Shown: one piece after another, positions 9,518 through 17,086 of the stretch
Layout of the letters: every line of letters starts with the position of its first letter
Numbering within the stretch: the first letter of the stretch is position 1
Source: Dehalococcoidia bacterium
Lineage (GTDB): Bacteria; Chloroflexota; Dehalococcoidia; Lucifugimonadales; UBA3495
Direction: 5' to 3'
Length of the DNA stretch: 62,472 nucleotides
Assembly (NCBI GenBank): GCA_022827095.1
Contig: JAJDTP010000013.1
Location: forward strand, 1-62,472
Program-made: the position numbers and the translations under genes
The notes under the pieces: model-generated
Database searches by the model: none
The model's input: only the letters and a program-made list of their open reading frames with translations
Told to the model about the DNA's origin: nothing

Positions 9518-10885
9518 TCAGGTCCGGAGCAGTTCCGCCAAGTTGCTGACCGGTTCTGCTTCATCCAACAGGTCCAGGCGGGAAAGGACTTCCGCCGTCG
9601 TCGCTTCGGACAGCGCCGTCGCGGCGCAGTCGTGGAACTTCTCGCGGACGTCTTCCATTGTCACGCCCCGGAGGGCCCCGCTGTTGGCGCGGTGCGCCTG
9701 CTGTCGTAGCGTGCTCCCGTCCTTCATCTGGACCTCAACCTGGTGGAAGCCTTCAGTCCAACTGGGCTGCCCCTCGTTGCCCGGGATGCGGCGCATGTCG
9801 ATGCGCGGGATCAGCGCCTGGGCTTCGGGACGCATCACCTGATCGTCCGTGAAGGACTGCAACCCGACCCGTTGGTCCAGCAAGGCCGCTGCCAGGCAAT
9901 ATTGCATGCTGAACTTTCCCTCCAAAGACGACACCGGGCGTGAGTGGATCAGTGACCGCGGCGGGTCGAAGTCCACCATCACGTCGATCCGGTCCACCGC
10001 CGCGGGGTCTATGGTGCCCTGGGACAGCAGGTCGAAGGTGGCGTCCAGGGCCAGGTGGGCGCTGCCGCAGCAGGGGTACTTCTTGATTTCGATACCAGAC
10101 TCCACCAGGTAGCATTTGTTTCCCAGGTTCTGCGCTACCTGCTGGCTGTCGAAACCCTGGCCGCCCGAGAAGGCCCGGATGAATCCGAACCGGCCTTCCA
10201 GAGCATCCTCGCTGGCGGTGAAGCCTTCCCGCACCAGCCTGGCCGCGACGACCCCGGCGCGGGCGGCGTCTCCGGCGTGGAACGGCTTGGTCATGGTGCC
10301 GAAGTTCTGTCGCAATCCCGACGCCTGGGAAGCCGCCAGGGAGACGGCCATGGCCGTCTGTTCCGGGCCCAGGCCCATGATTCTGCTGGCTGATGCCGCC
10401 GCACCTACCGCTCCCAGGGGACCCGTAGGGTGCCACCCGAGGTCATCGTAGTAAGCTTCACTCAGGGCCTCACCGACGGCGCACGCGACTTCGAAGCCCG
10501 ACATGTATCCGAGCAGCATGTCCTTGCCGGTGGCGCCGCACTCCTCGGCCACCGCAAGGGACGCCGGCAGCAACACTGCGGTGGGATGTGTCTTGGTGAT
10601 CTGGGTGATGTCGTCGTAGTCCAGGGCGTGAGCCATGGCGCCGTTGACGAGGGCGGCGTTGGCCGCGGAGGTCCGGAATCCCCGTCCAACGACGCTGGCG
10701 GTGGGGGAGGCGGCTTCGGCCGCAACGTAGCGGCATAGGATGTCCGACAGGGCTTCGCGGGAGCCGGCCAGCATACACGCCAGACAGTCCATGATCGCTC
10801 CCTTGGCCGCTTCGATAGCCTCGGGCGGGAAGTCCTCAATGTCGGTGGCGGTGACGTATTGCGCGATCCGCTGCGTAATGTTCAT
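9518..10885 (-). CDS. MmgE/PrpD family protein (2-methylcitrate dehydratase fold)
   Basis: 455 aa. Diagnostic segments are DCLACMLAGS near the N-terminus, NGAMAHALDYDD, the ALSAGF-like stretch (MAVSLAASQASGLRQNFGTM), KPFHAGDAARAGV and the middle KKYPCCGSAHLALDA. The fold includes 2-methylcitrate dehydratase and cis-aconitate decarboxylase; here no other methylcitrate-cycle gene is adjacent, so the substrate is open. The start is placed at 10885 because CCAGGAG lies nine bases upstream; the frame is open 24 codons further. A second paralogue lies at 15731-17086. Confidence 0.85.
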   Translation of the reverse strand: MNITQRIAQYVTATDIEDFPPEAIEAAKGAIMDCLACMLAGSREALSDILCRYVAAEAASPTASVVGRGFRTSAANAALVNGAMAHALDYDDITQITKTHPTAVLLPASLAVAEECGATGKDMLLGYMSGFEVACAVGEALSEAYYDDLGWHPTGPLGAVGAAASASRIMGLGPEQTAMAVSLAASQASGLRQNFGTMTKPFHAGDAARAGVVAARLVREGFTASEDALEGRFGFIRAFSGGQGFDSQQVAQNLGNKCYLVESGIEIKKYPCCGSAHLALDATFDLLSQGTIDPAAVDRIDVMVDFDPPRSLIHSRPVSSLEGKFSMQYCLAAALLDQRVGLQSFTDDQVMRPEAQALIPRIDMRRIPGNEGQPSWTEGFHQVEVQMKDGSTLRQQAHRANSGALRGVTMEDVREKFHDCAATALSEATTAEVLSRLDLLDEAEPVSNLAELLRT

Positions 10886-13498: not shown

Positions 13499-14515
13499 AT
13501 GCCTTACGGAGACAATGACTGGCTGGCCCTCACCGCCGAAGCATCCCTCGAGCCGGACCTGCCCATCTGCGACGCCCACCACCACTTCTGGGACTTTCGC
13601 ATGGACCGCGTCCCCTATCATCGCTACCTGCTGGACGAGCTGGCTGCGGACGTAAACAGCGGTCACAACATCCGCTCCACCGTGTTTCTCGAAGCGCGGT
13701 CCATGTATCGCCCCGACGGGCCCGAAGAACTGCGGCCGGTGGGCGAGGTCGAATTCGTTCAGGGCATAGCGGCCGCCAGCGCCACCGGCCTCTACGGCCC
13801 GACCAAGGCCGCCGCTGCCATCATCGGCGCCGCGGACCTCGCCCTGGGAGACGACGTGGCTCGCGTCCTGGACGCCCTCCAGGCGGCCAGCCCCAACCGC
13901 TTTCGCGGCATCCGGTACAACACCGGGTGGGATCCGCATCCCGAACTGGAAAGCCGTTCAACCGAGCACAAGCTCGCCGACCCGCAGGTGCGCGCCGGAG
14001 CCAAGGTGCTGTCTGACCGTGGTCTGGTATACGAGAACGTGGTGTTCTTCCCGCAGCTTTCGGACCTGGTGGACTTCGCCAACGCCCTCTCCGACCTGAC
14101 CATCGTGTCCAACCACATCGGCGGACTGATCCGTATCGGCCCCTACGGCAATCGGGACGACGAGGTGATGCCGGCCTGGCGCGAGGGCGTGGCCGCGTTG
14201 GCCCAATGCCCCAACGTGGTGATGAAGCTCGGCGGCGTGGGTCAGCCGCGCTATGGTTTCGACTGGCACACGCGGGCCACGCCCATCGGATCAGAACAGC
14301 TTGCTGAGGAAATGGGACCGCTGATCACCTACTGCATCGACCAGTTCGGGCCCAACCGCTGCCTGTTCGAGAGCAACTTCCCGCCGGACAAGGTGTCCTT
14401 CTCCTACAACGTCATGTACAACGCGTTCAAGCGCATGACCGCCGGCTACTCGGCCAGCGAGCGCGCCGCCATGTTCCACGACAACGCGGCCCGGATCTAC
14501 AGCATCGACGGGTAG
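13499..14515 (+). CDS. Amidohydrolase family TIM-barrel hydrolase
   Basis: 338 aa. ICDAHHHFWDF near residue 24 is the metal-binding HxH of the amidohydrolase_2 family (2-pyrone-4,6-dicarboxylate hydrolase, gamma-resorcylate-type decarboxylases). FRGIRYN, a conserved His in SNHIGG and CLFESNFPPDK near the C-terminus match the predicted metal-dependent hydrolase (COG3618) branch. ACAAGGAG precedes the ATG. The substrate is probably a lactone or cyclic carboxylate; this cannot be read from sequence. Confidence 0.85.
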   Translation: MPYGDNDWLALTAEASLEPDLPICDAHHHFWDFRMDRVPYHRYLLDELAADVNSGHNIRSTVFLEARSMYRPDGPEELRPVGEVEFVQGIAAASATGLYGPTKAAAAIIGAADLALGDDVARVLDALQAASPNRFRGIRYNTGWDPHPELESRSTEHKLADPQVRAGAKVLSDRGLVYENVVFFPQLSDLVDFANALSDLTIVSNHIGGLIRIGPYGNRDDEVMPAWREGVAALAQCPNVVMKLGGVGQPRYGFDWHTRATPIGSEQLAEEMGPLITYCIDQFGPNRCLFESNFPPDKVSFSYNVMYNAFKRMTAGYSASERAAMFHDNAARIYSIDG

Positions 14516-14607
14516 CCACGCCAAACAGCAGATAGAGCTTGGCGAATTAACTGGCAATCCATCGCAAGTTGCACATACTTCGTCAACACGAGCGTGCCAT
14601 CAGATGC

Positions 14608-15129
14608 CTAACACGCGCTGTCGCCTGAAACGCCTTGTTCCGGTATTTCTCGCTCTGCTAAATCCACGCCCGATTCTGACAATTCCCAGACCCCCCGCGG
14701 AGAATCTGATTTGAACAGGCCTTCATCGACCATCTTCTTGCGTTCCCAAGAGGCAGCGTTCCACCATCTTTCCTGGCTGGATCCAACTATCTTGTAATCG
14801 CCATCGGAGAAACGATCAGAAAATCTTTCGAGTAACGCCGTGCGCACCTGGTTGGTGGTTGCCTTTCCACCCATTTCGTACAGTGCAACGAGAAGAGGGA
14901 CCCTAAACTCTTTTTGCGACATGGACCCCGCAGGTTGAACGGCAGGTGAAACGACCTGCAGTTGACTACCATTAGTAGCCTCTGGTCGCTTCACAGCGTG
15001 CACGTTTCGATTCTGCTCAGCTGCATCAAGAACCTTAGATAGCGCTGTGTCTACCGTGTCTTCCAAAGGCTCAGCCCAAGCTTTCAGCCGACGAAAGTTC
15101 GGGGTTGATATTTTCACTTCCGGCGCCAT
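14608..15129 (-). CDS. SeqA-N-like segment fused to Mrr-N-type winged helix
   Basis: 173 aa. Residues 5-35 (VKISTPNFRRLKAWAEPLED-TVDTALSKVLDAAE) resemble the oligomerising N-terminus of SeqA, and residues 70-155 (MSQKEFRVPLLVALYEMGG, then WWNAASWERKKMVDEGL and GVWELSESG) are the winged-helix domain found at the N-terminus of Mrr restriction proteins. The nuclease domain is missing. Predicted DNA-binding protein without catalytic part, either an orphan regulator or a restriction-system relic that kept its DNA-reading part. It shares its first segment with the small protein upstream at 15308. Confidence 0.65.
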   Translation of the reverse strand: MAPEVKISTPNFRRLKAWAEPLEDTVDTALSKVLDAAEQNRNVHAVKRPEATNGSQLQVVSPAVQPAGSMSQKEFRVPLLVALYEMGGKATTNQVRTALLERFSDRFSDGDYKIVGSSQERWWNAASWERKKMVDEGLFKSDSPRGVWELSESGVDLAEREIPEQGVSGDSAC

Positions 15130-15307
15130 TTCCGTATCTCCTGTTTGACCTCATCATTACTTCCGGGCACCACCACTGAATGAGCTCGGCCGTCGTGAAT
15201 TTGCCGTGGCGACGAATCCTTTAGCCAACTCGCTTGAATTGAGGCTGGGCGTGAATCAACCTCCCCCTCGCGCGGTCATCGCCAAACCGGCGCACCGAGG
15301 ATGAAGT
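15130..15307. other. Intergenic between the paired small proteins
   Basis: No gene or clear hairpin. Short gap between two leftward genes sharing an N-terminal domain. Confidence 0.3.
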
Positions 15308-15490
15308 TTAGCAACCTGTGAGATTTGTCGGAGTCGGCGTTCTGAAGGTCGACGGTTGCGTGCCATTTTGTTCGTTTTTCGCAGCCATCGCGAGCACTTT
15401 TTTCAAAACTGAGTCAGGAGTATCGACCAAGGGAGTCGCCCATGCTTGAAGCTGCTGAAACGTTGCCGGGGAGATTTCGATGGAAGGCAT
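15308..15490 (-). CDS. 60-aa SeqA-N-like small protein
   Basis: The frame is open for 140 codons, but GGAGGTGAATATA before the ATG at 15490 gives a 60-aa protein beginning MPSIEISPATFQQLQAWATP. That segment aligns with the N-terminus of the winged-helix protein at 14608 (VKISTPNFRRLKAWAEP) and with the SeqA pattern IEVDDELYxYIAxxT...SDILRRxL. It consists of little else, so it may be an oligomerising or inhibitory partner. A perfect 14-bp palindrome lies 61 bases upstream and may be its operator. Confidence 0.6.
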   Translation of the reverse strand: MPSIEISPATFQQLQAWATPLVDTPDSVLKKVLAMAAKNEQNGTQPSTFRTPTPTNLTGC

Positions 15491-15550
15491 TATATTCACC
15501 TCCGTGGGCGTATCGGACCATCGGCTGCAATTGAAGGCAATCGCATGTAT

Positions 15551-15564
15551 GTATGGTACCATAC
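15551..15564. promoter_or_regulatory. 14-bp perfect palindrome, possible operator
   Basis: GTATGGTACCATAC is self-complementary and is flanked by further partial symmetry (GTATGTATGG / CCGTGCC). It stands 61 bases before the start of the 60-aa SeqA-N-like protein, where a promoter is expected. A ribbon-helix-helix-like protein controlling itself would use such a site; this is inference. Confidence 0.4.
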
Positions 15565-15730
15565 CGTGCCGTATTAATCGACTGTCATGCAGAACCGGCT
15601 CTGGAGGCTTTAATACCGTCAGCCTGGACGCGCGTTTGATGTTCAATGCTATGTATGGATGGGGTATTGCCGCGAGTTTGTCGAATGCGATCCCACCTCG
15701 TCGGAGATTCGCGGCAAACCACAGCACCAA

Positions 15731-17086
15731 TTACCCGCCCAACACGAGCGAAGTGAGAGCATGGATATCCTGCAATTCGTCCAGCCGGGACGCCATTTCA
15801 ACAACCTGCTGCACCTTGCCTGCGCCAAGGGAGTCCCGCGACAACAGGTCGAACTTGCCCAGCAGTTCCTCTCGGCCGGCGGGGTTGGAGAAGTCGCCGC
15901 GCTGTGACGTGACCTCCGCGCGCCGGAGACGGCCGTCGGCGAGTTGCACGGCGACCCGTGCTGCCGGGTAGTCGTACCGGCGCAGGTTCATCTCGGGGTC
16001 GGATTCGAGCGAAACCCGCTCGGCCAGCGCGCGGATTTCGGAGTTGTCCAGCCGTTCCGGCAGGAATGCCGTGACATCGGTCCGTCCGTAGCAGATCGCG
16101 GCGGCTACTGCATAGGGGATTGAAAACTTGGCGGCCAGCATGTTCTCCGGATGCGGGTCGGCCATGATGCCGGCGATGGGGGGCGCGGTGACCGCAATGC
16201 TTTTTACGTCCGCGGCGTCGAACGGCTCCTCGCGCAGCAGATCCTGCACGGCATCCAGCACCGGGTGGTTGTACAGGCAGCAAGCGTGCAGCTTGAAATA
16301 GTTCTGCTGTATGCGCAGGTTGCCGCCAGTCCCGAGGCCATCGGTCACCGCATCCGGGTCAAAGCCGTCACCCAGGAATGTGCGGTAGAGGTCCGCCGGC
16401 CCGTCGGCGATGGCAGTGTACCCGCACTGGCTCAGATGCGCGGCCATGATGCCCTGGAATCCGGACCGGCCGGGGTACAGGTTGCGCACGGTGGCCCCTT
16501 CGATGCAGGGCGTCCACGTGTTGGCTGGACTCATGGACATGGCCAAGTTCATCGCCGTCCGCGTTTGCGCCGCGTCGAAGCCCATCAGCCGCGCCGCAGC
16601 AGCTGCGGTGCCGATGGTTCCCCAGGTGCCGTGGGAGTGCACCTCCGCCTTGACCGTGGTCGCGGCGCCGATGCGAGAGATCACCTCATAGCCAACGATG
16701 ATGCTCGCCAGCACGTCGCCGCCGCTGCGTCCCAAGTCCTCGCCGACGGCTATCGCCCCGGGCGTGACGTGGATGGACGGGTGCCCACCGCCCAGGCGGT
16801 TGCCCTCGTCCATCTCCAGCGACACGCCGGCGGTGGCGTTGACCATCGTGGCCCAGACCGGTTGCACCCGATGGCCATGGCCCAGGACGCTCGCCCTGCC
16901 GGGTCCGCTCATGGTCGCGACGAGCCCGGCGAAGTTGGCGTTTTCGGACAGGCGGCTGCCGGCCAGGATCGCGCCGATGGTGTCCAGCGCCACGTCCCTG
17001 GCGGCGGCGATTGCGGTCGGATGCAAATCCTCCCAGCGCGTTTCCGCAACGAACTCGGCTAGAACATCGAGGTAGTCCTGGGCCAT
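15731..17086 (-). CDS. Second MmgE/PrpD family protein
   Basis: 451 aa. Characteristic segments: VALDTIGAILAGS, MVNATAGVSLEMDEGNRLGGGHPS, MGFDAAQTRTAMNLAMSMS, LYPGRSGFQGIMAAHL and NYFKLHACCLYNHPVLDA. The pattern HPS-IHVTPGA is that of the cis-aconitate-decarboxylase/methylcitrate-dehydratase fold. The start at 17086 lies eight bases after the stop of the upstream dehalogenase-like gene, so the two form an operon; the frame could otherwise extend 57 codons back into that gene. It differs clearly from the paralogue at 9518. Confidence 0.85.
   Translation of the reverse strand: MAQDYLDVLAEFVAETRWEDLHPTAIAAARDVALDTIGAILAGSRLSENANFAGLVATMSGPGRASVLGHGHRVQPVWATMVNATAGVSLEMDEGNRLGGGHPSIHVTPGAIAVGEDLGRSGGDVLASIIVGYEVISRIGAATTVKAEVHSHGTWGTIGTAAAAARLMGFDAAQTRTAMNLAMSMSPANTWTPCIEGATVRNLYPGRSGFQGIMAAHLSQCGYTAIADGPADLYRTFLGDGFDPDAVTDGLGTGGNLRIQQNYFKLHACCLYNHPVLDAVQDLLREEPFDAADVKSIAVTAPPIAGIMADPHPENMLAAKFSIPYAVAAAICYGRTDVTAFLPERLDNSEIRALAERVSLESDPEMNLRRYDYPAARVAVQLADGRLRRAEVTSQRGDFSNPAGREELLGKFDLLSRDSLGAGKVQQVVEMASRLDELQDIHALTSLVLGG

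Follow-up and report, generated by a model that had tools for sequence, protein, structure and literature searches.

A SeqA-N-like segment fused to an Mrr_N winged helix in a candidate regulatory gene pair of a Dehalococcoidia bacterium

The E. coli replication regulator SeqA consists of an N-terminal segment, a linker and a C-terminal domain that binds hemimethylated GATC, and its N-terminus drives the formation of oligomers. In E. coli Mrr, a winged helix at the N-terminus is linked to a nuclease, and sensitivity is conferred by 6mA as well as by 5mC (PMC12707154, partial text). The table of a review assigns Mrr-N as the presumed DNA-binding part (PMC3874153, partial text), and the winged helices of DpnI and HHPV4I act as sensors of adenine methylation (6mA) (PMC11037411, partial text). 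We analysed a stretch of 62,472 nt from a Dehalococcoidia bacterium (the window), in which an initial annotation had described two proteins, A and B, sharing a SeqA-N-like segment. Protein A follows the SeqA arrangement of segment, linker and C-terminal, putatively DNA-binding part, and the N-terminal 36 residues of SeqA are collinear with the shared segment. It differs from SeqA in that its C-terminal domain is Mrr_N rather than the hemimethylated-GATC binding domain, in that neither A nor B matches the SeqA_N family, and in that it occurs in another phylum and another context. With the Mrr restriction endonuclease it shares an Mrr_N winged helix above the Pfam cut-off, but it lacks the PD-(D/E)XK nuclease Mrr_cat and carries Mrr_N at the C-terminus, whereas Mrr carries it at the N-terminus. 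We read A and B, with a probability of about 0.5, as a horizontally acquired two-gene regulatory cassette, in which A is a DNA-binding regulator from a family associated with conflict modules and is present here as an orphan or remnant.

Both open reading frames were recovered on the minus strand where the initial annotation had placed them. Gene B (15308..15490) encodes a 60-aa protein in which residues 1–39 form the SeqA-N-like segment and a short polar tail follows, in agreement with the earlier description of B as nearly the shared segment only. Gene A (14608..15129) encodes a 173-aa protein, in which the segment (15007..15126, matched by the segment profile and the N-terminus of NF047386) is connected by a linker to the winged helix (PF14338; residues 74–158, 14656..14910). 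The gene order is B–A with 178 nt between the two genes, and a Shine-Dalgarno-like stretch precedes each ATG (GGAGGT for B, AGGAG for A). Both genes are real; for B, the match of its first 45 residues to the NCBIfam model NF047386 is an independent sign of coding. We do not favour a recent, broken copy of A as the origin of B, as the two are only 46% identical and the 178-nt gap is shorter than a whole Mrr_N.

The pair is flanked by an Amidohydro_2 gene and an MmgE/PrpD gene, and farther out by genes for a luciferase-like monooxygenase, an alpha/beta hydrolase and an acyl-CoA dehydrogenase. Next to the pair, the window has no gene for a toxin, an effector or a methyltransferase, the open reading frame list contains no further likely gene inside the insert that carries A and B, and PADLOC matched neither protein. 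A search of positions 14480–15800 for sigma-70-like promoters returned none on the strand of the pair and one on the opposite strand; no terminator-like match was found on the strand of the pair. The perfect 14-bp palindrome noted earlier, GTATGGTACCATAC (15551..15564), does exist: it lies upstream of B, 61–74 nt ahead of its ATG, and is the sole exact copy in the genome. Its frequency is no more than chance: the window contains 6 perfect palindromes of at least 14 bp, compared with a mean of 6.5 (range 2–15) in 30 Markov sequences. Only its position therefore singles out GTATGGTACCATAC; we rejected it as operator evidence and retain it as a candidate operator only. The longest perfect palindrome of the window is AGACGGCCATGGCCGTCT (18 bp, 10342–10359).

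The first ~40 residues of A and B are 46% identical over 41 aa (E = 1.9e-5, search within the genome), and a profile of the segment matches A with E = 4.6e-21, a value to which the sequence of A contributes as part of the profile. The SeqA_N family gave a mixed result. A Pfam search with E values up to 10 matched neither A nor B directly, while three of 12 segment-bearing relatives match weakly (best E = 8.2e-4, 19.1 bits against a cut-off of 23); single-sequence E values for relatives are 8.2e-4, 1.2e-3, 1.5e-3 and 1.2e-3, all below the curated cut-off, and a relative with a different C-terminal part reaches 0.24, likewise below it. Alignment of the 12-row segment profile to E. coli SeqA by hhalign yields a score of 28.5 and is collinear with residues 1–36, compared with maxima of 14.1 for 60 shuffles of full-length SeqA and 12.5 for 60 shuffles of residues 1–40, and with 11.7 for the ribbon-helix-helix protein YbfE. 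Profile searches of solved structures retrieve the SeqA entries 3fmt and 1xrx weakly (E = 0.13 and 0.42) and below designed proteins; a second profile search places 1xrx at E = 1.1, and no solved structure matched in a sequence search with A. We conclude that the likeness of the segment to the SeqA N-terminus is real, and the reading of the segment as SeqA-N is supported. AlphaFold2 models the segment at low confidence, with pLDDT ~50 for residues 1–40 of A; in B, helices are predicted at residues 8–18 and 25–41 with a mean pLDDT of 63, also low. Apart from Mrr_N, Pfam matches A only with ABC_trans_aux (9e-4, 19.3 bits against a cut-off of 26), a match that spans segment and linker and is taken as chance for that reason. 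The segment also starts other proteins, whose C-terminal parts show no convincing Pfam match.

NF047386, the model for the T4SS effector SepA family, matches the first 45 residues of B (E = 9.5e-11, 41.8 bits) and residues 3–66 of A (E = 5.7e-8, 32.8 bits) against a cut-off of 110 bits. The likeness is confined to the N-terminal 45–65 residues, nothing past the N-terminus is matched, and neither A nor B is a full-length member; one genome of the phylum contains such a member (1/301 over the cut-off). We did not adopt the effector label on the basis of this N-terminal partial match. SepA of Brucella is a 130-aa secreted protein with no characterised domain (PMC4602199, partial text), and its role is uninformative for A and B.

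Mrr_N (PF14338) matches residues 74–158 of A with E = 6.2e-11 and 42.7 bits against a cut-off of 29.5, and the Pfam search of A returned neither Mrr_cat nor any other nuclease family, which bears out the earlier description of a winged helix without nuclease. Residues 71–160 are modelled by AlphaFold2 as a confident winged helix (block pLDDT 85–94). Foldseek with the model of A gave nothing at E ≤0.001, the best hit being the viral protein F93 at 1.1e-3; VIA-align 2 returns winged-helix matches, with Hel308 first (Z 11.1), then PadR, MarR and other common regulators at Z 8–10, values only slightly higher than those given by the tool as typical of models without a match. The initial annotation had called the separation of Mrr-N from its nuclease unusual, which the genomes of the phylum do not support. 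Mrr_N occurs at E ≤1e-5 in 91 of 390 genomes, and 35 of the 115 match rows tallied in these 390 genomes are frames of ≤260 aa, some of which may be truncated by contig ends or otherwise fragmentary; the limit is shorter than the nuclease-bearing Mrr of the window's own genome. This separate Mrr (309 aa, Mrr_N plus Mrr_cat; L140:2478-3407, contig C1 of genome G000) stands between apparent monooxygenase genes. The data fit a derivation of the regulator from a restriction enzyme, as had been suggested, as well as the reverse. As a separate observation, luciferase-like monooxygenases at four loci (L004, L007, L008 and L009 in genomes G002, G003, G001 and G005) have a C-terminal region like the Mrr_N part of A (E = 7e-12 to 1.3e-9). 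Pfam assigns the L008 protein to the monooxygenase only, without Mrr_N, and a fusion of enzyme and winged helix would be odd.

Both genes lie in an insert of ~1.2 kb (14516..15725, boundaries approximate) with a GC content of ~0.53, compared with 0.62 for the window. We compared the DNA around the pair across the genus (14 genomes). Five congeners (G006, G011, G014, G016 and G017) lack the insert at this junction and have the two flanking genes side by side, their match ends being 36–224 nt apart rather than ~1.25–1.3 kb as in the window; for the other eight congeners, the match list shows no adjacent flanks. Absence in five congeners implies that the pair was either gained here or lost repeatedly. 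Gain is the simpler of the two and fits the composition of the insert. The genome contains no second copy of it.

Among 400 genomes of the phylum the segment profile matches in 10, and among 50 of the family in seven, the window's genome counted in both, and within the genus in that genome only (1/14). A search of the alphaproteobacterial class gave matches in seven of 385 genomes, with a full-length alignment only in G449, the genome of locus L044. Viral contigs scanned with A contained no relative; scanned with a four-row alignment, they gave three matches (L095–L097) from residue 61 on, which is the Mrr_N part. Phage records gave no match, and three plasmid searches retrieved nothing beyond partial matches (1, 1 and 2 records). 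A small insert without a partner gene in one of 14 genomes of the genus would be expected if A and B were decaying leftovers of a larger island with no selected function. Both frames are open and preceded by ribosome-binding-like stretches, and conserved residues of the segment and the winged helix are retained, all of which argues against decay, and we consider this account rather unlikely.

Two-domain proteins of the A type occur at seven other loci: L082 (genome G023), L083 (G182), L084 (G364), L085 (G422), L086 (G072) and two alphaproteobacterial records, L044 from an alphaproteobacterium and L045 from Defluviicoccus. The small-plus-large pair is found only in the window: within the flanks available, at none of the seven loci (0/7) does the two-domain gene have a short segment-only neighbour, so the pairing is not conserved. 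At L086, two neighbouring segment-bearing genes are both large, and segment-only proteins stand alone in three genomes (L087, L088 and L089). Literature searches of titles and starts of abstracts returned no description of a SeqA-N/Mrr-N fusion, and none appears in the available parts of PMC12707154, PMC3874153 and PMC11037411.

The neighbours of these relatives vary. At L044 (5998-6998), the two-domain gene and the PIN gene after it (E = 6.8e-15) overlap by 4 nt, stop codon against ATG, so that a two-domain regulator takes the place of the usual antitoxin before a PIN toxin-type gene. At L045, the overlap is with a Fic gene (E = 1e-17) taken at its longest frame; the true start of this gene may differ. 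At L082, a ParE-like toxin gene (E = 6.3e-12), preceded by a small gene without Pfam match, ends 118 nt upstream of the two-domain gene; downstream lies a class II tRNA synthetase gene. In L083 and L084, an ATPase-like gene follows at a distance of 27 nt and 2 nt, respectively, and a gene for a DNA methyltransferase (N6_N4_Mtase, E = 3.2e-12 and 1e-11) converges on it. The L084 ATPase matches HATPase_c_3 at 3.9e-4, below the cut-off, while that of L083 has no Pfam match and is not matched by PADLOC. A DUF2225 gene follows 2 nt downstream at L085, and no partner was identified at L086. Taken over the seven loci, a toxin-type gene abuts the 3′ end in two and lies upstream in one, two have a methyltransferase and two have neither. 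Partners thus differ among relatives, and there is no single conserved partner.

A small putative DNA-binding gene placed directly before and overlapping a PIN or Fic gene, as in two of the relatives, resembles the regulators of type II toxin–antitoxin systems; the window locus differs in having no adjacent toxin gene. The overlaps at L044 and L045, together with weak VAPB_antitox matches in two of 12 relatives (best 0.19), would also suit A-type proteins that are antitoxins proper and neutralise the toxin encoded downstream, in which case the copy in the window would be a solitary antitoxin guarding against a related module. The partner folds differ (PIN, Fic, ATPase), to which a transcriptional role is better suited than specific toxin binding, and no toxin lies beside the insert; we regard neutralisation as unlikely.

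The sets at L083 (3800-8166) and L084 (7734-12048) are compact, each consisting of a SeqA-N/Mrr-N protein, a GHKL-type ATPase of ~820 aa and a converging N6/N4 methyltransferase, and are found in two genera of one family. They are a candidate for an uncharacterised defence or modification system. These two methyltransferases also bear on the reading of A as a SeqA analogue, in which oligomers of A would read modified DNA, with Mrr_N recognising methylated bases, the segment stringing copies along the DNA and B capping the filament. The shared plan and the collinear N-terminus agree with this reading, as do the winged helix, nuclease and 6mA/5mC sensitivity of E. coli Mrr (PMC12707154, partial text) and the 6mA-sensing winged helices of DpnI and HHPV4I (PMC11037411, partial text). 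We nevertheless judge it improbable: the window pair has no methyltransferase beside it, none was recognised adjoining the other five of the seven two-domain loci (read from gene lists, partly profile-scanned), DNA binding by Mrr-N is only presumed in the review (PMC3874153, partial text), and the structural comparison points to ordinary regulators of the PadR and MarR kind. Its broadest form, in which A would be a SeqA analogue assembled from other parts, in a mobile family coupling the reading of DNA methylation to toxin or defence operons, with B as a natural filament cap, is quite a long shot.

Further arrangements were seen outside the two-domain proteins. At L088 (7811-10237), a segment-only protein stands before a fragment of an HmaA/DrmD-like SNF2 helicase, followed by a DDE_5 transposase gene, which looks like a broken defence operon. 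Genes of small Mrr_N proteins with other N-termini can overlap helicase-type genes as well: a ResIII gene by 4 nt at L020, and at L104 (locus of L098) a DEAD-helicase gene taken at its longest frame. Most of the 22 loci listed have no comparably clear partner.

For the preferred reading of A and B as an acquired regulatory cassette, we propose that A would self-associate through its SeqA-N-like segment and bind DNA through its winged helix. B, carrying the association segment on its own, would supply extra segments of this kind and may join or cap the oligomers of A; mixed A/B oligomers, raised in the initial annotation, are possible. Both genes are probably carried on one minus-strand transcript with B first, and A probably represses a promoter upstream of B, which would make the pair autoregulated. 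The family of A would comprise DNA-binding regulators, antitoxin-like or operon regulators, of PIN, Fic, or GHKL ATPase plus DNA methyltransferase modules, and the copy in the window would be an orphan regulator or module remnant whose partner was lost or never present. This proposal builds on (i) the Mrr_N match, the confident winged-helix model and the similarity of the segment to the SeqA N-terminus, (ii) the B–A order on one strand across a 178-nt gap, with terminator-like matches absent from that strand, (iii) the absence of the insert in five congeners together with the dip in GC content, and (iv) for a role in conflict modules, the neighbours at L044 (PIN), L045 (Fic), L082 (ParE-like), L083/L084 and L088. 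Several observations weigh against it: no toxin, effector or methyltransferase gene lies by the pair, partners vary among relatives, the segment is modelled at low confidence, no sigma-70-like match lies on the strand of the pair, and the palindrome, a candidate operator only, occurs at chance frequency.

The fusion of a SeqA-N-like segment to Mrr_N recurs in the phylum of the window and in two alphaproteobacterial records, and several of these copies have toxin-type or methyltransferase genes next to them. Should the fusion prove to be a common regulator or reader of conflict modules, it would offer a handle for finding uncharacterised defence cassettes, such as the combination of winged helix, GHKL ATPase and methyltransferase, and would allow a direct test of whether the SeqA plan had more than one origin.
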